NCBI GenBank assembly: GCA_000424365.1
Contig: AUJT01000013.1
Coordinates: 1-64,000, forward strand
Source of the DNA: Lachnospiraceae bacterium NK4A144
Lineage (GTDB): Bacteria > Bacillota > Clostridia > Lachnospirales > Lachnospiraceae
Direction of reading: 5' to 3'
Length of the DNA: 64,000 nt
Numbering within the stretch: position 1 is the first letter of the stretch; the number at the start of each line of letters is the position of its first letter. The notes beneath the pieces are model-generated. The model was not told the DNA's origin and made no database searches. It worked only from the letters and a program-made list of their open reading frames with translations. This document shows, in pieces, positions 1-18,819 of this stretch. The position numbers were made by a program, and so were the translations under genes.

Positions 1-155
1 TAACTGATTTAATCTACATAATTGACAACAATAACAAATGCTAATACATAATAAAGAAAATATTTACATTTTTTCTCTGTTAATCTAGCATTCTGCTATT
101 TTAATTAACGCGAACGTACGTGAAAAAATATGTGAACTTGACGTTCGCCCATTTT
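1..155 (-). promoter_or_regulatory. Probable CRISPR leader downstream of cas2
   Basis: This AT-rich stretch lies directly downstream of cas2 in the direction of cas transcription, the usual place of the leader in type I-C loci. It contains an 8-bp inverted repeat, GCGAACGT at 110-117 and ACGTTCGC at 141-148. No CRISPR repeat unit is visible, so the first repeat probably lies just beyond base 1. The leader assignment is inference from position and composition. Confidence 0.5.
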
Positions 156-446
156 TCACATGGACAAAAAATCCTGTTCAGCATTATAACTCTTCTTTTT
201 ACCAAACTGCTCGATTCTTGTATTTGCATTATTTCCTAAATTATAGAATCGAATGCTGTCTTCTTCATCCATAAGTTCACAAAGAACACCCTTTAAATAT
301 CGATACTGTGCTGCATCCAAGTTGCACTCAAACACAGAAAACTGCACACGTTGACCATAATTCACACATTCTTTTGCTATCTTTCGAAGCCTTTTCCTTC
401 CGGCTGCAGTCTCCGTATTAACATCATAAGTCACCAAAACAAGCAT
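156..446 (-). CDS. cas2: CRISPR-associated endonuclease Cas2 (type I-C)
   Basis: Cas2 is the small dimeric partner of Cas1 in spacer acquisition. The 96-residue protein opens with a beta strand and the conserved aspartate (LVTYDVNTE, residues 4-12), then a basic helix (GRKRLRKIAKEC) and the strand motif QRVQFSVFEC; all are typical of the ferredoxin-like Cas2 fold, and the length is normal. The gene starts 3 bases after the cas1 stop, so translation is probably coupled. It is the last gene of the cas operon, next to the presumed leader. Family assignment is secure from sequence and context. Confidence 0.95.
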   Translation of the reverse strand: MLVLVTYDVNTETAAGRKRLRKIAKECVNYGQRVQFSVFECNLDAAQYRYLKGVLCELMDEEDSIRFYNLGNNANTRIEQFGKKKSYNAEQDFLSM

Positions 447-449
447 ATT

Positions 450-1481
450 TCATCTCCATATAAATGGTGGATACGCATCTATATCACCTCTAATATACCT
501 TGCCAAAAGCATCGCTTGAGTATACGGTACAAGTCCCCACTCAATCTTCTCTTTCAAAAATGGATGTTCGATTTTTTCCTGTTTTCTCTTCTGCCAAGAC
601 TGTTGTATCTTTTTTCTCCCGTCCTCCGTTATCAAAACAGATCCATTTTCCTGAACTTGGAAATCACCTGAATTTACAATCCCATTATTGATCAAGCTCA
701 AAACAAAACGATCTCCTAATACAGGTCGTAATTCTTCAACCAAATCCAATGACAACGATACGCGACCAGGTCTGTCTGTATGCATAAATCCAACATAAGG
801 ATCCAATCCAACCGTTTCTAACGCAGATGAACACATACTTGTGAGCATCATATAAACATACGATAGTAACGAATTCACATTATCTAATGGCGGACGTCTG
901 TTTCTTCCATGATAAAAAAATGTATCTTTATTCCGCAGTATCATCTGATCAAACTTTCCAAAATAAATCGTTGCCGCAGCACCTTCGATTCCTCGTAATG
1001 AATCATTGTCAACAGCATTAACTATATTCGAAAGCATCCCCTTTAAGAGACTAGACGAATCTTGAAATTCGTCTATATCAACGCGATCTGCGTGATCTCT
1101 CTTAACACGGTCAAGGACATGTTTCTCATTCATCACTTTTCCAAGAATAAAATTCTTACTGACATTGTTCCGCCGTTCATCAGAATCTGCTATCCGATAC
1201 TGCTCACGTCTAAGCAAAACATTTCCACTTGTCCGACCTGACGGTCTGGATAAAAAATAGCCTGACGGTTTGCAAAACACCAAATCAATATTTTTTTCAT
1301 GGCATTTTCCAATCAAAGATGGCGAAGCTCCTGCATAAGAAAATATGCATATACCTTCCAGAATATGTAAAGGAAAACGCCCCTTTATATCATCTCCAAT
1401 CTTTATTACGACATTTTCTCCGTCTAAAGTCGCATATGCGTCTTCGGTATTAACATATAACACATTTAGCAGCTTTCTCAT
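450..1481 (-). CDS. cas1: CRISPR-associated endonuclease Cas1 (type I-C)
   Basis: Cas1 is the integrase that inserts new spacers, acting with Cas2. The 343-residue protein has the N-terminal beta domain and the alpha-helical C-terminal domain. The three metal-binding residues can be read: Glu166 in GIEGAAA, His234 in GFMHTDRPGR and Asp246 in SLSLDLVEE, so the active site looks intact. Its ATG overlaps the cas4 stop by 4 bases (ATGA), indicating translational coupling. Length matches the I-C subfamily. Nothing suggests decay. Confidence 0.96.
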   Translation of the reverse strand: MRKLLNVLYVNTEDAYATLDGENVVIKIGDDIKGRFPLHILEGICIFSYAGASPSLIGKCHEKNIDLVFCKPSGYFLSRPSGRTSGNVLLRREQYRIADSDERRNNVSKNFILGKVMNEKHVLDRVKRDHADRVDIDEFQDSSSLLKGMLSNIVNAVDNDSLRGIEGAAATIYFGKFDQMILRNKDTFFYHGRNRRPPLDNVNSLLSYVYMMLTSMCSSALETVGLDPYVGFMHTDRPGRVSLSLDLVEELRPVLGDRFVLSLINNGIVNSGDFQVQENGSVLITEDGRKKIQQSWQKRKQEKIEHPFLKEKIEWGLVPYTQAMLLARYIRGDIDAYPPFIWR

Positions 1482-2140
1482 TTCTCCAGCTTTATCATCC
1501 TTTGTATATAATCCTCTACCGTATTCTCTTCAAACAACTCCGGCATACAGATCCCAACCAATGAACATGATTCACACGACTTTTTCTTACGTACTTTAGG
1601 ATTTTGTCCCCTTGTATAAAGATCATGCATTTCTTTTACTGATTCTCTCACAAGGTTTCTGATTTTTTCGTTTAGGTCAACATTCATTCGATGTCTGTTC
1701 TCTCCGTAGTAGATAGCCCCTTCCGGAATATTACAACAATACATCTCCTCTAAACACATTGCCTGTGCACAGACCTGTGCTTCATCACATAAAGTTGGTT
1801 TCTTTTTTCCTCTCTTATATTCGATCGGATATGGTTGCCAAAGGTCTTTTTCTCCAACGATATTGATTCCATTTTCACATTTGTAAAACTCAACAACATC
1901 ACATTGTCCAGAAAGACCCAATTCACGAGAATGAACATACATGCCTCTGGATATCAATGTATTTCCGCGACGTTCATGTCTAATCTTGTCATGAGCATTT
2001 TTATGAAAAAACTGTCCGTCGACAGTTTTTTCATTTTCACACCATTGCTTTTCAATATGAATCAACGCCCATTGCCGTTTACAAAATATGAAATGCTGTA
2101 TTCCTGATAATTGCAGAAAATCTTCTTCATTAAATTCCAT
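1478..2140 (-). CDS. cas4: CRISPR-associated exonuclease Cas4
   Basis: Cas4 trims pre-spacers and helps choose PAM-containing ones before Cas1-Cas2 integration. The 220-residue protein has a conserved first cysteine at residue 20 (FIFCKRQW) and the C-terminal cysteine cluster SCESCSLVGIC, which with Cys20 would bind an iron-sulfur cluster. A RecB-like nuclease core lies between (YPIEYKRGKKKP, with the catalytic E-x-K arrangement). I place the start at the ATG at 2140 because GAGG lies 6 bases upstream; a TTG one codon earlier is less likely. It overlaps the end of cas7 by 11 bases. Confidence 0.93.
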   Translation of the reverse strand: MEFNEEDFLQLSGIQHFIFCKRQWALIHIEKQWCENEKTVDGQFFHKNAHDKIRHERRGNTLISRGMYVHSRELGLSGQCDVVEFYKCENGINIVGEKDLWQPYPIEYKRGKKKPTLCDEAQVCAQAMCLEEMYCCNIPEGAIYYGENRHRMNVDLNEKIRNLVRESVKEMHDLYTRGQNPKVRKKKSCESCSLVGICMPELFEENTVEDYIQRMIKLEK

Positions 2141-2969
2141 CAATTTCCTCTAATGCTAATCCAGGCAATTCATCTACCTTGATCTCATAGTCCGAAATAT
2201 CCTTTGCATCTTCATTAATAACGTTAATTTTTACTAAATCATGCACTTTTCCTGATGAATACTGTCCATCCTTACAATTATGTTTCCACCAGAACACTTT
2301 TACAACTTCCATTGAGCCATCCGGTCTTGCAGAAGATGCGTCATTTAAAAATAATGTTCTTAAACATTCTTTGACAGTATTTGCATCCTCTTCAGAAAAA
2401 CCAGTTTTCTCAGCAAGTTGAACATTGATCGAACCCTTTATTTTGTATAGTCCAAACTTAACAAAATGCTTCATACCCATCGTGTCAGACCCCTTTTTAT
2501 CCGCTGGTTCTCCGTTAACACTTTTAGTAATCTGCATTGACTGAATTTCAACAGGCGAAATACTTTCAGCCTGATGTATCGTCACGGGTCCACGCACTCC
2601 AGCCGATCCACCACTGACATCCATTGACTTAAATGCAAACACTTGTCCAAATGTTCGAACATCCAGCCATTCCTCACAAGCTTTCTTCTCATATTCTGTC
2701 CGATCTTTAATCCCTTTTAGCTTCGAAGATGCTCTTTCACTCAAACTCTTAAATCCATCTTGACAACGATCATCGGATTGAACAAATATCGGATTTCCAA
2801 GATCCTGCATACGATTTCTGATCTTCCTTTTTATACATACATCTGATATTTCTCCGAAACCGTCGTAATCTGTCCTTGGCCGATTTCCGTTCAAAGGGTC
2901 TCCATTTGGATTTGCGTTTTTTACGCTTGCAATCACAAGAAAATCAATTTTGTTCTCGAATTTACTCAT
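2130..2969 (-). CDS. cas7: Cas7 (Csd2), type I-C Cascade backbone
   Basis: Cas7 forms the helical backbone that coats the crRNA in the I-C effector. The 279-residue protein begins with an RRM-like strand followed by the typical NPNGDPLNGNRPR segment of Csd2 proteins, and has a conserved glycine-rich region near SGGSAGVRGPVT. The ATG at 2969 is preferred to one five codons upstream because GGAGG (2978-2982) sits 8 bases before it. It lies between cas8c and cas4, the standard I-C order, and multiple copies per complex are expected from the family. Confidence 0.95.
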   Translation of the reverse strand: MSKFENKIDFLVIASVKNANPNGDPLNGNRPRTDYDGFGEISDVCIKRKIRNRMQDLGNPIFVQSDDRCQDGFKSLSERASSKLKGIKDRTEYEKKACEEWLDVRTFGQVFAFKSMDVSGGSAGVRGPVTIHQAESISPVEIQSMQITKSVNGEPADKKGSDTMGMKHFVKFGLYKIKGSINVQLAEKTGFSEEDANTVKECLRTLFLNDASSARPDGSMEVVKVFWWKHNCKDGQYSSGKVHDLVKINVINEDAKDISDYEIKVDELPGLALEEIDGI

Positions 2970-2990
2970 CTTTTTTTCCTCCATATTGAT

Positions 2991-3368
2991 TTATTCATCT
3001 GCAACATTGTCTTTCTTTGTATACATATTTTTTCTCTGTAAATAGTATCCAATAAGATACATATCCGAAAGCGGCTTATTAATCTCATTCTCCGGAAACG
3101 CATTTATTATCGACATTATTTCACCAATCATATTCTTATAATTAATCCTGCTCCCTGCTGGTAATCTGGGAATATATGCTCGTTCAAGCTGTTTCTCAAG
3201 TTCGAACGCATAATGTAAAGGTCGATTACAAAACACAGACTGTAATCGGATAGCATTTGGTTCACGTTCATCGCTTTTATCATAGGTATCACGCTCTATT
3301 TTTTCATATATAGCCAGTAAACGTCCAAACTGATAACTTCTATCCGGCTTTTCCATATCAAGCTCCAT
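2991..3368 (-). CDS. cas11c: Cas11c small subunit from internal start in cas8c
   Basis: An in-frame ATG inside cas8c at 3368 is preceded by AAGGAGG (3377-3383) with 8 bases of spacing, one of the best Shine-Dalgarno sequences in the operon. Translation from it would give a 125-residue protein starting MELDMEKPDRSYQFGRLLA, predicted to be mostly helical. Published work on other type I-C systems shows that a Cas11 small subunit is made from such an internal site and is needed for a full Cascade. The sequence evidence here is the site and length; expression is inferred. Confidence 0.82.
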   Translation of the reverse strand: MELDMEKPDRSYQFGRLLAIYEKIERDTYDKSDEREPNAIRLQSVFCNRPLHYAFELEKQLERAYIPRLPAGSRINYKNMIGEIMSIINAFPENEINKPLSDMYLIGYYLQRKNMYTKKDNVADE

Positions 3369-4787
3369 TCCTATCTCCTCCTTCTTATGATCATAATAAT
3401 ATTTACGTATAACTGCACATGTTGTATCTAACAGATATTTCCGTGTCGTTTTTCCATACAAATGCATCCGTGATGCATTTTGTACCAACTGCTTTTCAAT
3501 ATCTGCAGGAAAAAGCTCTTTCCCTATCCTGCATCTAAGCAAACGTTCAACCGTCTGTTTCTTAATGTTATCATCAACTTCTACATGACCATCATGCTCA
3601 CGATTACGTTCTAATCCATATGTATATTGAACAATTCTAGGGATTGATGGTGCCAAAACAGTATTGAATGAGTACCACACACAATGCTCATCCCAATCCT
3701 TCAATCTCATCAAGTATATTTCTGTAGGTATTTCGCTATAAAAAGTCACCGCTAATCGACCTGGAATTGCAGCATCAAAAACGGCGACTACTGTTTTTGA
3801 TGATATTTTATCCTTCAATTCCGATCGATACCCCTCTATGGTTCTCGACAACATGTCTCTATAATCTGATGGAACCATTTTGGTTCGATTTTGATCATCC
3901 GATTTCACCAACGGATTTATAGGTACCGGTATCTGATCACCCTGAGGCGACCAACATACGAAAGCTCTTCCACCTTGCACCGTTCCCTGATTTTTCAATA
4001 CCCATTTCAATGCATTATGTGATTTTTGTGATGCTAAATACCCTATTGTTAAAGCATCTTTAGGATTAATAAACCTTCCTCGAAACGTAAAATTTGTTTT
4101 ATCATTTGAAGATATTAATTTTGCATTTCCTTTAGATGAGAAAATCCCCTTCAAATGCTGCGAAGCTAATATCACCTCTTCACCTGTTAACATGCAAATG
4201 TTTTTATCACACTTTTCTTGTATCTTATCCAGATAGTATTTAGAATATAAACTCATTAGTTTAACATCTCGATACACCCTTGCTTCACCTTCGCATCCGA
4301 GCACATTCCATGCAACCAGTTCTTCTTCCTTACTTGGTAAACCTTTATCAGTCAGTTTTAAATTCCCGTCTTTACACAAATCCTCCACGATTGTATTAGC
4401 TGAAACATATTTATATATTGCTTCTAGTTTTGGATCACCAAAATCGGATTCAATCCAATTTTTCAGCTGTGTCAAATAATCCTGCTGCCTCTCTTCACTT
4501 TTATCATCATAGGATGCCAAATATTTAATTTGCTCACACAATGGATGCGGCGAAAGCTTTGTGCCTGACCTTCCCGCTGAAGATTCAGTTACAGGAATGA
4601 TGATTTTTTCTTCTTTAGACCTCTGAGCAGAACTGATATATTTTCCATCTTGATCAATTGTTATCTCTATATTTGCTGATACAATTGCATGTCCTATCGG
4701 AGCGAGAGGTTCTTTTCCATCTTCATACATCCCGGCAATACTCTGATTCGCATCATAAGTTTCCAAAGCACATTGAAATAACCCCAT
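2991..4787 (-). CDS. cas8c: Cas8c (Csd1), type I-C large subunit
   Basis: Cas8c is the large subunit that recognises the PAM and recruits Cas3. The 598-residue length is usual for Csd1. Recognition rests on operon position and features such as the central segment NPKDALTIGYLASQKSHNAL and QGGRAFVCWSP. The start codon directly follows the cas5c stop. The last 125 residues carry a strong internal ribosome binding site and an ATG that should yield a separate Cas11c subunit (see separate entry). No frameshift is visible. Confidence 0.93.
   Translation of the reverse strand: MGLFQCALETYDANQSIAGMYEDGKEPLAPIGHAIVSANIEITIDQDGKYISSAQRSKEEKIIIPVTESSAGRSGTKLSPHPLCEQIKYLASYDDKSEERQQDYLTQLKNWIESDFGDPKLEAIYKYVSANTIVEDLCKDGNLKLTDKGLPSKEEELVAWNVLGCEGEARVYRDVKLMSLYSKYYLDKIQEKCDKNICMLTGEEVILASQHLKGIFSSKGNAKLISSNDKTNFTFRGRFINPKDALTIGYLASQKSHNALKWVLKNQGTVQGGRAFVCWSPQGDQIPVPINPLVKSDDQNRTKMVPSDYRDMLSRTIEGYRSELKDKISSKTVVAVFDAAIPGRLAVTFYSEIPTEIYLMRLKDWDEHCVWYSFNTVLAPSIPRIVQYTYGLERNREHDGHVEVDDNIKKQTVERLLRCRIGKELFPADIEKQLVQNASRMHLYGKTTRKYLLDTTCAVIRKYYYDHKKEEIGMELDMEKPDRSYQFGRLLAIYEKIERDTYDKSDEREPNAIRLQSVFCNRPLHYAFELEKQLERAYIPRLPAGSRINYKNMIGEIMSIINAFPENEINKPLSDMYLIGYYLQRKNMYTKKDNVADE
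3377..3383 (-). promoter_or_regulatory. Internal Shine-Dalgarno for Cas11c
   Basis: AAGGAGG on the minus strand, within cas8c, 8 bases before the ATG at 3368. It is unusual because it lies deep inside a coding region. Confidence 0.8.
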
Positions 4788-5516
4788 TTAAATCACCTCC
4801 CCGAACTCATTTAATCCAGAAAAGTTCTTTTTATCCTCAAATATCTTCATTTCTGCTTCTCTTATTATTTTATGTCGTGGACAATCCTCCGGTCTTTGGA
4901 ATTCGATAATCCCATTTTTCATGACAGGTTGCCATAAATTAACAGTCATTTTCCCTTTTGTTTCCTCTGAATAAGCTTCATCCGGATATGTGATTCCATG
5001 ATACATAAGCCCGAAATTAAGCTCATCTATATTTTCGTACGCTGATTCGCCTTCACCAAAAACACAAGGGCTTACATATCCTTGACATTCTCTTGTTCCT
5101 AAAAAGATATCCCGTCTTCCACCTTTTTCTATCATCCTTTTAGCTATATTATGATGCTTGTTTTCATTTTGATCCTGTTCCAACTCCGGTCTATTATCAT
5201 TCCATTCAAAATGCGCTCTAACCTGATATCTGACATTTTTCAAATAAGTGTAATAAGACAAATCATTTCCACCGTTCATTTTTATAGGACGTATTCCCTT
5301 TGTCTCTGTTTGAATTGGGTTCATGATCCTGATCGCATCTATGTACCATATAAATGTTGGTTTCCAATATATTGAGGCAGTAATTCCCTTTATTGCTTCA
5401 TAGGTAGGAATTTGGTAAGTGCACTTTTCTCCTCCCAAACGAAATATCGGATCAGAAAACAATGCATATTTTCCATAAACTTCGTATTCCACAATATTTG
5501 GATGTTTTGTTTTCAT
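4788..5516 (-). CDS. cas5: Cas5c (Cas5d), pre-crRNA endoribonuclease
   Basis: In type I-C, which lacks Cas6, Cas5c cuts the repeat RNA and stays on the crRNA 5' handle. The 242-residue protein has the N-terminal RAMP strand (YGKYALFSDPIFR), the segment YEAIKGITASIYWKPTF and a Lys-His pair in NKHHNIAKRM that fits the catalytic Lys-His of characterised Cas5c enzymes. It abuts cas8c with no gap and follows cas3 by 3 bases. Catalytic residues are assigned by similarity of local sequence, not by alignment. Confidence 0.93.
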   Translation of the reverse strand: MKTKHPNIVEYEVYGKYALFSDPIFRLGGEKCTYQIPTYEAIKGITASIYWKPTFIWYIDAIRIMNPIQTETKGIRPIKMNGGNDLSYYTYLKNVRYQVRAHFEWNDNRPELEQDQNENKHHNIAKRMIEKGGRRDIFLGTRECQGYVSPCVFGEGESAYENIDELNFGLMYHGITYPDEAYSEETKGKMTVNLWQPVMKNGIIEFQRPEDCPRHKIIREAEMKIFEDKKNFSGLNEFGEVI

Positions 5517-5519
5517 AGC

Positions 5520-7919
5520 CTATCCCTCCAAAAATCCACTTAGATTTCCATTCATCGTTATACCAACGTTCTCATCATAATATCCATCACTCAAAAACCA
5601 GACATCCCTATCTTTAATCGGTATAATCGCACCTAAGCTTTCCAAGCGCTGTTTTTGATACGGATACAAGGTAACCGTATACCCCTTAGCTTCTTTTAAC
5701 AATCCCATAACATAGTTAAAATCATATTCTGCTCTTTCACTTGAAAGATCTGCAATAATGTCTTTTCCTTTTTCATATGGAACAATTACATCCATCGTAT
5801 TTTCATCAAATACGTGAAAGTTTTGATAAGCCAGCTTAAACGCCTGATGTAACATATATATCCCATACAGCTGAGTATTATCGTTTGTAAAAAACTGATT
5901 ATTTGAAGACAGTAACTGAAAAATCGAGAAGTTTGCTTTATCTACACTATAATCCGGATAATTTTGTTTCATTTCACCATACAAAAATTTGTAGTAGTCT
6001 TTGACAGATTCATCGGAAGTAAACGAGTTCCCCTCCTTCTCATTTTTTTGAATAAGCCTAATTGATGCGTCTTTCTCTCTTTTTATCTCTTCCAGCATTG
6101 TTAAATTTTCATCTGTACAATTAAGCATATATACCGTCCCAGGTATTTCCATTTCTCCATCACGATTACATCTACCGTCAGCTTGAACTACTTTGTCTAT
6201 ACCAGCCAGCAATCTGATTACACATTCGAATGAGATATGGACTCCTGCCTCCAGAACTTGTGTTGAAATACATATTAACGGTGAATTATCCGATGTGGAC
6301 TTTTTTAATTCAGACTTTATCTTATCCAGAACAATCCTTCTATGCTGCATACACATAGAGGCTGACAGATGATAACAATTATGTTCTAACGATAATTCCT
6401 GATATAAACGTTCGCTTTCATTTTTCTTATTACAAATTACTAATACACTTTTTGCATTACCTGCCAATTCAAGTATTCTCTGAGATAAATCATCTGTTTT
6501 ACAGTTTCCAGCATTCTTTATGACCGTTCTTTTGAAACAGTCCCATATTTTTTCATCATATGGAACTATATTTCTTGCAGGTAATGATATAGGATGATCC
6601 GCTCCTTCCAAATAAGGCTGCGTTGCCGTACATAAAACCACTGTAGTTTTGCAACAACCGCATAGAAAAGAAATCATTAGATTAAATAACGTTAATAGTT
6701 TATTTGGAACACTCTGAACTTCATCAATCACAATGATCGAATCACTCAATGAATGAAATCGACGAATATTAGACATTTTCCCGGCAAAAAAGGTATCTAA
6801 TAATTGCACTAATGTCGTAATTATAATCGGAGATTCCCAATTATCAATGTACAACTCATTTAGATTTAGCTCATCACCACTAGTCTCCGGTTGCAAAGCG
6901 TTGGAATGATGTTCAAGTATCAACGATTGATCTGATATGAAACTCCTTACTACGTCAGCATTCTGTTCCAAAATACTGAGAAGCGGTGACACAAATATAA
7001 TTCGACTTTTTCCATATTTTTCGGCATGTGAAAGTGCAAAACGTAAAGAACTAATAGTTTTTCCGGCACCTGTAGGAACACTCAACCTAAATAATCCTTC
7101 TGTTTGAAAAGATGCTTCTTTACATTTATCTGATATTTTCATTCTGGCTTTGTTAATAGCCGATGAATTATCAAATGTATCTATTATCTTTTCTGCATGC
7201 TCTAATTCATCATGCCAAATGTGACTGATATCTTCACATCTTTTCGGATAGTCAATACTATTAACAAATTTCGCTGTATCCCTCCGATCACCATCTACGA
7301 CCGCAGATAACACCATTCTGGTCAAACATCCAATATAAAAATTTATTTCATCTATCCGCTTCTCCGGATCGGATTGTTTTTCTGAAAGTCTACTGATTTG
7401 TTCTATATATTTCTCAACTGACACTACTGCTTTTTCATAGTATCCATTCAATTCATTTTCGTTAACGCAATATTCAAAATAATTGCCAATTGCCTCTTCA
7501 TAATCTATATCTTCTTTAGTAGACCGATACTCAAACCCATTTTTTCCATTTTCATCCATGCAATCAAATACACCGTGATGAGCGCCAATCGCATAAGCTA
7601 CCAAATCTCTAGTAAGCTTTCCTGCAGGTGTATCTATATCCGAAAATTTATCCAAAACATATTTAACTCCAGTAAACGTATGATTCACTGACCCTCTTTG
7701 GACAGAATCAGGATCTTCAACTGCTTTGCATATATATTCGTTAAACTTTTTTGTATACTTTCCTGCATCATGAAGCAATCCTGCAAGATAACCAACCTCT
7801 CCAAGACCAATTGACTTCAAATAGCTTGATGCATATTCTGCCGTTTTTTTACAATGATCACTAACGGTTTGTATTTTTCGATCTCCAGTTATGGAAATAT
7901 GTGCAATATAGTTTTCCAT
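5520..7919 (-). CDS. cas3: Cas3 HD nuclease-helicase (type I-C)
   Basis: Cas3 is the nuclease-helicase that degrades target DNA after Cascade binding. The 799-residue protein carries the HD nuclease motif LLHDAGK (about 49-55) and AHHG (about 113-116), then a superfamily 2 helicase with Walker A PTGAGKT (about 282-288), the Walker B box DEVQ (about 399-402), the TAT motif III (about 431-433) and motif VI QADGRCNR (about 579-586). All core residues are present, so the interference machine looks functional. It is the first gene of the operon; GGGAG precedes the ATG. Confidence 0.97.
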   Translation of the reverse strand: MENYIAHISITGDRKIQTVSDHCKKTAEYASSYLKSIGLGEVGYLAGLLHDAGKYTKKFNEYICKAVEDPDSVQRGSVNHTFTGVKYVLDKFSDIDTPAGKLTRDLVAYAIGAHHGVFDCMDENGKNGFEYRSTKEDIDYEEAIGNYFEYCVNENELNGYYEKAVVSVEKYIEQISRLSEKQSDPEKRIDEINFYIGCLTRMVLSAVVDGDRRDTAKFVNSIDYPKRCEDISHIWHDELEHAEKIIDTFDNSSAINKARMKISDKCKEASFQTEGLFRLSVPTGAGKTISSLRFALSHAEKYGKSRIIFVSPLLSILEQNADVVRSFISDQSLILEHHSNALQPETSGDELNLNELYIDNWESPIIITTLVQLLDTFFAGKMSNIRRFHSLSDSIIVIDEVQSVPNKLLTLFNLMISFLCGCCKTTVVLCTATQPYLEGADHPISLPARNIVPYDEKIWDCFKRTVIKNAGNCKTDDLSQRILELAGNAKSVLVICNKKNESERLYQELSLEHNCYHLSASMCMQHRRIVLDKIKSELKKSTSDNSPLICISTQVLEAGVHISFECVIRLLAGIDKVVQADGRCNRDGEMEIPGTVYMLNCTDENLTMLEEIKREKDASIRLIQKNEKEGNSFTSDESVKDYYKFLYGEMKQNYPDYSVDKANFSIFQLLSSNNQFFTNDNTQLYGIYMLHQAFKLAYQNFHVFDENTMDVIVPYEKGKDIIADLSSERAEYDFNYVMGLLKEAKGYTVTLYPYQKQRLESLGAIIPIKDRDVWFLSDGYYDENVGITMNGNLSGFLEG

Positions 7920-8257
7920 CGAGTTCTCCCATTTACCATGTTGGCATTATTATATATCTTACAAGTCATTTATCGAATTAAGTTTCACATTTTAAACAAT
8001 TATTACTTGTTCACACGCTATCAATATATTTATTTTTACAACTAAACTGAATTTCTGATTTTTTCTAGTTAATCCTTATAATTATTATAAAACTTATGCT
8101 GTCCAATAAAACGGACAACAATACCACACCCAAGCACCCAAAGAAAATCCTCGTAGTTATGTAAATCCTCTAGCGTAGGACAATCGTTGTTTCCTTCACG
8201 CCATACTGTCTCTCATTCTTAATTCTTAATTATCGTCATTCCGTTGTCATATCGAAA
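7920..8257. other. Intergenic region upstream of the cas operon
   Basis: This gap holds the candidate cas promoter near 7949, a small stem (TGTCC/GGACA near 8100-8117) and otherwise AT-rich sequence. I see no gene and no CRISPR repeat in it. Confidence 0.6.
7949..7954 (-). promoter_or_regulatory. Candidate -10 element for the cas operon
   Basis: TATAAT on the minus strand, about 30 bases upstream of the cas3 ATG. The -35 region at 17-bp spacing (TTCGAT) is poor, so this promoter is only a candidate. Confidence 0.4.
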
Positions 8258-8285
8258 TTGTCTTTTTATGATAATGTGTTACAAT
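8258..8285 (+). promoter_or_regulatory. Strong sigma-A-type promoter of RNA candidate
   Basis: TTGTCT at 8258-8263, a 16-bp spacer and TACAAT at 8280-8285 preceded by TGT, an extended -10. Expected transcription start is near 8292. No convincing protein-coding gene follows, which points to a non-coding transcript. Confidence 0.7.
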
Positions 8286-8291
8286 AGGTCT

Positions 8292-8520
8292 TAGTGGGTG
8301 GTGTGCCTACCGCCTATGCATAAGAGCTTACTTGCTCTGAGGTTTAGCCTTGTCGGACTTGGCTTTACTAGCGTTATTGAAACTGTTACTCGAGAAACTG
8401 TTTCGTCTTTTTTAACGCTTTTACCAAGTCCATCAAGGCTTTTTCAATACCCTTTATGTCTTATTTCTCCACGTCTGATGGGCGGTGACCAGTTTTGGGG
8501 ATAAAAAAGCACCCCGAAGG
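8292..8520 (+). ncRNA. Candidate structured non-coding RNA
   Basis: Downstream of the 8258 promoter the sequence is rich in paired segments. A long hairpin is built from AGCCTTG (8346-8352) with CAAGGCT (8434-8440), GGACTTGG (8355-8362) with CCAAGTCC (8424-8431), GCGTTA (8371-8376) with TAACGC (8413-8418) and GAAAC (8379-8383) with GTTTC (8400-8404). A smaller hairpin AGAGC/GCTCT lies at 8323-8338. Near the 5' end ACCGCC (8309-8314) can pair with GGTGGT (8297-8302) or with GGCGGT (8481-8486), so alternative folds are possible. I cannot name the family; raiA-type RNA or a 6S-like RNA are options only a covariance search can test. The 3' end is approximate. Confidence 0.62.
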
Positions 8521-8558
8521 AAACTTAAATCAATTTTTTTCGCACCAACGCCAAAAAT

Positions 8559-8582
8559 CCCCGAAGCCATCAGGCTTCGGGG
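8559..8582 (-). terminator. Terminator after the GGGtGRT gene
   Basis: CCCCGAAGCC and GGCTTCGGGG form a perfect 10-bp stem with a 4-base loop. On the minus strand it is followed by ATTTTT, a usable U tract, so it ends the 9646-8624 transcript. It may also stop the plus-strand RNA candidate, although the plus-strand U tract is poor. Confidence 0.85.
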
Positions 8583-8623
8583 ATCCTTTACGTTTGGACA
8601 AATATTTTATTATTAATCTAAAA

Positions 8624-18544: not shown

Positions 18545-18628
18545 TTTAGATCTCCTTATTCGAAACATCTTAATTGGTAAAAAAGGTGGGCAGATAGAAC
18601 TCTGCCCACCGCTTAAAGCACATTATAT

Positions 18629-18819
18629 GATGTCAGGGTCAAAAGGTCAAAATCCGATTGTGCTTGCACAAAGAGGATTGAGACCTTGGGACCCGCAAAA
18701 CACGAGCAAGTAGCGTTATTACGCGGAATGCGAGTGTTTTAGGATTGCGGGAATTGCGTAGCAATGAAGCAATCCGTGACATCAGTAAGGGGCAAAATTT
18801 ACTTTTGACCCTTACATCC
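18629..18819. repeat. Family B MITE-like element, full copy B1 (191 bp)
   Basis: Ends are GATGTCAGGGTCAAAAG (18629-18645) and CTTTTGACCCTTACATC (18802-18818), inverted with one mismatch in 17. TTATAT flanks both sides (18623-18628, 18820-18825), a possible target duplication. Inside, CCCGCAA/TTGCGGG, AAAACAC/GTGTTTT and GGATTGC/GCAATCC form stems. No coding capacity. It sits between the RND efflux gene and the TSCPD gene. Confidence 0.75.

Follow-up and report, generated by a model that had tools for sequence, protein, structure and literature searches.

The c4 RNAs of P1 and P7, the CI RNA of P4, and the OOP RNA of lambda are phage antisense regulators situated next to immunity-type operons. 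The c4 RNA acts on a small leader ORF and is processed from the same transcript. The IS30 antisense RNA and the IS10 RNA-OUT have their site of action at or within the transposase gene. Antisense RNAs in IS10, IS30, and IS200 are held to reduce transposase expression (PMC8450116).

The DNA stretch analysed here, termed the window, comprises 64,000 nucleotides of Lachnospiraceae bacterium NK4A144 (contig AUJT01000013.1, positions 1–64,000). A first-pass annotation had proposed a structured RNA behind a promoter at 8258–8582. A structured RNA on the plus strand is indeed probable, but the suggested RNA families, the proposed length, and the pairing of its 5' segment in two ways did not hold. The sequence probably contains a short folded RNA gene at 8292–8445 (+), alone beside CRISPR genes. 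We read this segment as an orphaned copy from a hitherto undescribed family of structured phage antisense RNAs, whose members would restrain in cis an operon of a leader ORF and an integrase; we assign this reading a probability of roughly 0.6. The family, the place of its promoter, the hairpins, the U-tract, the position opposite the ORF, the gene order, and the decayed state of the window's ORF are all evident from sequence.

The extended -10 promoter of the first-pass annotation was recovered at 8258–8285 (+) with a score of 9/12. It consists of a -35 element TTGTCT (8258–8263), a spacing of 16 nt, and a -10 element TACAAT (8280–8285) preceded by TG (8277–8278). This site occupies the place homologous to the promoter of the relatives described below and is weaker than that of 16 of 19 relatives, which score at least 10/12. 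An overlapping alternative, TTGTCA-17-TATGAT at 8244–8272 (+), scored 10/12 (equalled by 9 of 500 shuffles) and lies off the homologous place. Six promoter-like sites were found between 7900 and 8800, compared to 2.7 in shuffles.

The predicted RNA starts approximately 7 nt past the -10 element. On the plus strand, the promoter is followed by three hairpins (HP1, HP2, and HP3) and a U-tract. HP1, the 5' hairpin, spans 8294–8317 (+) with a z-score of -3.4 (0 of 200 shuffles), and HP2 is a 5-bp hairpin at 8323–8338 (+), located over the stop codon of the ORF in relatives. The core of the fold is the long hairpin HP3 at 8346–8440 (+), for which a minimum free energy (MFE) of -37.2 kcal/mol was calculated (8345–8447). 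On its 3' side lies the terminator-like TTTTTC at 8440–8445 (+), which is complementary to the codons at the foot of the stem and preceding it. The long multi-helix hairpin recognized in the first pass was thus confirmed as a strong fold: 8292–8500 (+) gave an MFE of -67.9 and a z-score of -4.0, equalled by 0 of 200 shuffles. The minus strand of the same segment folds nearly as well (z -3.8, 0 of 200 shuffles), so folding alone does not decide the strand. The longer segment 8292–8582 reached a z-score of -6.3, but its last 26 or so bases belong to the terminator of the neighboring GGGtGRT gene (8557–8584, minus strand), which lies outside the RNA. As HP3 is followed by TTTTTC, an RNA ending at the U-tract would measure about 154 nt and not the approximately 230 bases originally suggested. 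The idea that the 5' segment pairs in two ways was given up, since the alternative partners lie beyond 8445, outside the conserved RNA, and relatives keep the local HP1. An overlapping 68-codon frame had been regarded as a by-product; this fits, as the frame starts beside the predicted transcript start and is antisense to an old minus-strand gene.

The first relative came from a blastn search of the other 47 genomes of the genus, one of which gave a match of 73% identity over 136 nt (E 2e-8). There, the homologous segment, read in reverse complement, forms a 42-aa ORF (P0001) that has a ribosome-binding site and adjoins a phage endolysin. In total, 20 distinct relatives were collected from phages and prophages, namely 19 loci (denoted by L and a number) from IMG/VR and genome contigs, obtained by patterns and alignments, and gp35 of the active Faecalibacterium phage FP_Lagaffe (NC_047911). 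Identical contigs were counted once, as were the near-identical L076 and L120. The pattern match L038 was dropped because the second half of the ORF is missing and the fold is weak. In 16 of the 19 loci and in FP_Lagaffe, the ORF of about 42 codons lies upstream of an IS30-type transposase gene; eight of these 16 loci had been found through the transposase itself, and in the other eight it was seen after the ORF. L064 and L073 end short of it, and none was seen in the approximately 2.2 kb after the L046 ORF. Pfam placed HTH_38 above and the integrase core just below the cut-off in two of these transposases. A ribbon-helix-helix (RHH) protein is encoded 3' of the ORF in 13 of 15 scanned loci, and several loci carry holin and amidase or lysozyme genes upstream. 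The 42-aa ORF itself had no Pfam match and only weak matches to function-unknown PHROGs families (E 0.0096); four of ten members matched phrog_204 weakly (best E 0.0031).

In FP_Lagaffe, gp35 is the ORF and the transposase is the integrase, and an opposing promoter and a hairpin RNA are predicted within the gp34–gp37 integration module. No RNA is among the listed record features of this stretch. The gene after the ORF encodes a helix-turn-helix protein, unlike the RHH protein of other loci. The transposase has been described as the atypical integrase of this phage, virions are produced, and mitomycin C, hydrogen peroxide, or bile salts caused no significant induction (PMC5883640). A tblastn search of phage records with the ORFs P0001, L121, and L118 as queries returned no match; as FP_Lagaffe is among those records and was found via its transposase, short queries of this kind overlook members. 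When the region was compared by blastn with phage and plasmid records, the matches were limited to fragments of about 30 bases, with E-values of 0.02 or worse. The G190 match was discarded, being a 24-base piece outside the RNA.

An antisense sigma-70 site of at least 10/12 was identified in 16 of the 19 relatives, with the -10 element ending 3–10 nt before the GC-rich HP1. For L064 the score was 9/12 (70 of 500 shuffles equal), and for L073 and L046 it was 8/12, no better than shuffles, with TATACT present at this place. As MAFFT misaligned HP1 and HP2 on the full RNA, these hairpins were assessed by other means. HP1 forms within 44 bases past the -10 element in the window and all 19 relatives, and in 18 of these 20 sequences at most 10 of 200 shuffles were as stable; the exceptions are L073 (20/200) and L046 (12/200). 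The U-tract comprises five T in the window and in 12 of 15 relatives and four T in L111, L141, and L130. The suggestion of a possibly new, structured RNA behind a promoter gained ground, as relatives share the promoter place, the hairpins, and the U-tract on the same strand.

For further searches, an HP3 model (R1) was built from 16 sequences including the window; L064 and the divergent L115, L118, and L119 were excluded from this model and from the HP2 and HP3 tests. R1 matched the window at 8345–8447, a sequence that is part of the model. Outside the model, it recovered L115, L118, L119, and L120 (E 3e-5 to 2.5e-4) as well as FP_Lagaffe (E 2.9e-7). Among 80 IS30-transposase loci, 15 matched and 65 did not; besides the four loci just named, the other 11 matches are model members or near-copies. 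All 15 locus matches and the FP_Lagaffe match are on the other strand from the ORF and the transposase. By sequence match, the minus strand of the window corresponds to the ORF strand, and the candidate RNA is antisense to it. The relatives' predicted promoters, known from sequence evidence only, would give such a cis-antisense RNA an opposing start of its own. An antisense regulator is the probable nature of this family. Within the genus, R1 matched the window's own genome and one of 47 others. Among 299 genomes of the bacterial family, it matched only the window's own, with 13 first-look candidates per genome scored; as this number was 13 for R1 and two for the family-wide DNA search, absence across the bacterial family is weakly established.

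In the window, the small phage ORF persists only as a decayed relative of P0001 at 8348–8457 (-), with a frame shift and without a usual start codon. The remnant was matched by tblastn (E 1.1e-5, one internal stop) and by a profile scan in two frames (E 1.6e-8 and 1.2e-3). A putative, weak remnant of the next phage gene (P0002-like) lies at 8140–8240 (-), the best hit of the window in the profile scan (E 0.4). No RHH remnant was detected near the window copy by the profile scan. The window's own genome gave no A9 match, and a downstream DNA-binding protein together with an IS30-type transposase was not found. The best ORF-strand promoter site in the window scored 4/12 in the scan used for the relatives. 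The frame, start, and promoter of the ORF are gone, and the window copy retains the family's promoter, HP1, HP3, and U-tract.

The copy has a host gene on one side and, on the other, a type I-C cas operon (156–7919, minus strand, near the contig start), of which Cas3, Cas5, and Csd1 were assigned by Pfam and the remaining genes by eye. In the two closest relatives at the GGGtGRT locus (approximately 95% identical there), homology breaks at 8547–8548, adjoining the terminator. Past 8547, the window carries the RNA and the cas operon, one close relative carries a cas9 gene, and the second carries a gene that by eye resembles an IS200-type transposase. The place 3' of the GGGtGRT gene (8547 leftward in the window; L160 and L161) looks like a hot spot. 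A reading as a CRISPR mimic (Racr) was dropped because no array was found in 1–3000, only two-copy families, and hence no repeat was available for comparison.

Whatever the RNA does in phages, the window copy might be dead prophage scrap whose hairpins are still undecayed, which we consider rather unlikely. The broken ORF, its missing promoter, and the barely recognizable next gene are in line with this, as are the promoter at the homologous place (weaker than that of 16 of 19 relatives), the single match among the other genomes of the genus, and an HP1 less stable (-18.5) than that of L003 (-23.9) or L018 (-23.6). However, the stability of HP3 in the window (-37.2) falls within the range of intact phages (-29.5 to -43.2). 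Randomly drifted controls at the same distance reached this value in only 5 of 3000 cases (15 relatives, 200 each) under a drift model without coding constraint; among relatives, 0–8% of drifted sequences reached the value of a member. Either selection on the RNA or an ORF lost only recently would account for this stability. As the loss may be recent, the preserved HP3 does not prove use.

The structure could also serve the mRNA of the ORF strand as a hairpin leader (attenuation or stability), with the antisense promoter being of minor importance. Native HP2 and HP3 were compared with chimeras of exchanged arms or halves in 15 relatives, whose pooled values are not independent since the members are related. 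HP3, which spans the ORF, averaged -27.8 on the RNA strand compared to -22.4 for half-swapped chimeras, and -20.2 compared to -16.7 on the ORF strand; on either strand, 47 of 210 chimeras were at least as stable as the native sequence. Native HP3 gained little or nothing over chimeras in four of the 15 relatives (L018, L111, L141, and L130). HP2 averaged -9.2 kcal/mol compared to -6.3 for arm-swapped versions on the RNA strand (matched or surpassed in stability by 50 of 210 chimeras) and -7.7 compared to -5.5 on the ORF strand (59 of 210). Relative to synonymous recodings using the family's own codons, HP3 had a mean z-score of -2.1 on the RNA strand and -1.4 on the ORF strand, so the ORF strand is structured as well, but the signal is larger on the RNA strand, a preference that is weak in places. 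Codons at the stem foot are frozen (Lys AAA and Ala GCC, each in 15 of 15 relatives), whereas codon choice differs at the other conserved Ala position and at two further Lys positions.

Covariation, which the first-pass annotation had named as a check, was seen within HP3 to a modest degree in aligned relatives: five pairs changed on both sides compared to 2.0 in shuffles, with 18 of 500 shuffles as high. Pairing was possible in 78% of the cells of HP3 columns compared to 35–48% in slid structures, with the structure itself taken from members. G-U cells outnumbered A-C cells 22 to 17 (11 sequences), a weak indication of strand, and RNAalifold proposed the foot of HP3 alone (7 pairs) for 11 sequences.

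A separate promoter serving the ORF, TTGACA-17-TATAAT or a near variant, scored at least 10/12 upstream in 18 of the 19 relatives and 9 in L064, a count made without shuffle control. Its spacer contains a palindrome, found by pattern in seven of 19 loci (L003, L018, L066, L068, L069, L071, and L073) and by eye in L029, L067, L141, and others. The palindrome differs between phages yet stays palindromic, as an operator would, resembling immunity operators. By eye, bases past the antisense -10 element (e.g., AATAGG) could base-pair with a stretch 3' of HP1 (e.g., CCTAT) in L068, L029, L003, L018, and L073, and the two segments seem to change together between phages. Part of this pairing falls 5' of the predicted RNA start, so it could form only in ORF-strand RNA or DNA. 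Both this promoter and this pairing would suit a role of the ORF strand. Nevertheless, the near-consensus promoter and the U-tract are on the RNA strand, the latter exclusively, and the window has kept the hairpin with a broken ORF and without a recognizable ORF-strand promoter. A structure serving mainly the ORF-strand mRNA appears doubtful.

A known bacterial RNA such as raiA or 6S, as originally proposed, can practically be dismissed: the likeness is general (a promoter and a long hairpin), and Rfam covariance models gave no family at gathering score for the window region, neither raiA nor 6S among the ten matches listed to E=10, and no match in the loci of four relatives. Elsewhere in the window, a Clostridiales-1 RNA (RF01699) was located at 18628–18784 (128.7 bits). 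No description of the present RNA emerged among the papers listed in literature searches. Thousands of candidate structured RNAs have been predicted (PMC8040213), and these may include the present one. A real phage RNA family absent from Rfam is likely.

Under the antisense reading, transcription of the phage RNA would begin at the promoter lying 3' of the leader ORF, ahead of the next gene, run back over nearly the whole ORF of about 42 codons, and end just before its start region. The RNA would be complementary to the ORF from approximately codon 5 to beyond the stop. Pairing with the leader mRNA would probably block leader translation and favor loss or early termination of the operon mRNA. 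The presumed consequence is lower expression of the small protein, the repressor-like DNA-binding protein, and the IS30-type transposase or integrase, and having less integrase and regulator would help to keep the prophage quiet. In the window, the RNA appears to be left as an orphan, and any present function is conjectural. It is very doubtful that the host has kept it as a superinfection block, acting on incoming Lagaffe-like phages by pairing with their leader mRNA and silencing the integrase operon; this idea takes note of the place, which is occupied by type I-C cas genes in the window and by cas9 in a close relative.

If our reading is correct, an uncatalogued RNA family joins lysogeny control in Clostridia phages that integrate by an IS30-type transposase, and a single stretch of bases codes for protein on one strand and, on the opposite one, for a structure under a promoter of its own. 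An orphan beside CRISPR-Cas further raises the question of whether hosts keep such RNAs against phages.

In comparison with the described systems, the present family resembles the IS30 antisense RNA and the IS10 RNA-OUT in that an antisense RNA and a DDE transposase belong to one element. Unlike these, it lies opposite a separate small ORF, with at least one gene between ORF and transposase, occurs in large phages, and has hairpins of its own. With the c4 RNA of P1 and P7, the CI RNA of P4, and the OOP RNA of lambda, it has in common that a small phage antisense RNA adjoins an immunity-type operon. In contrast to c4, the present RNA would come from a separate, opposing promoter.
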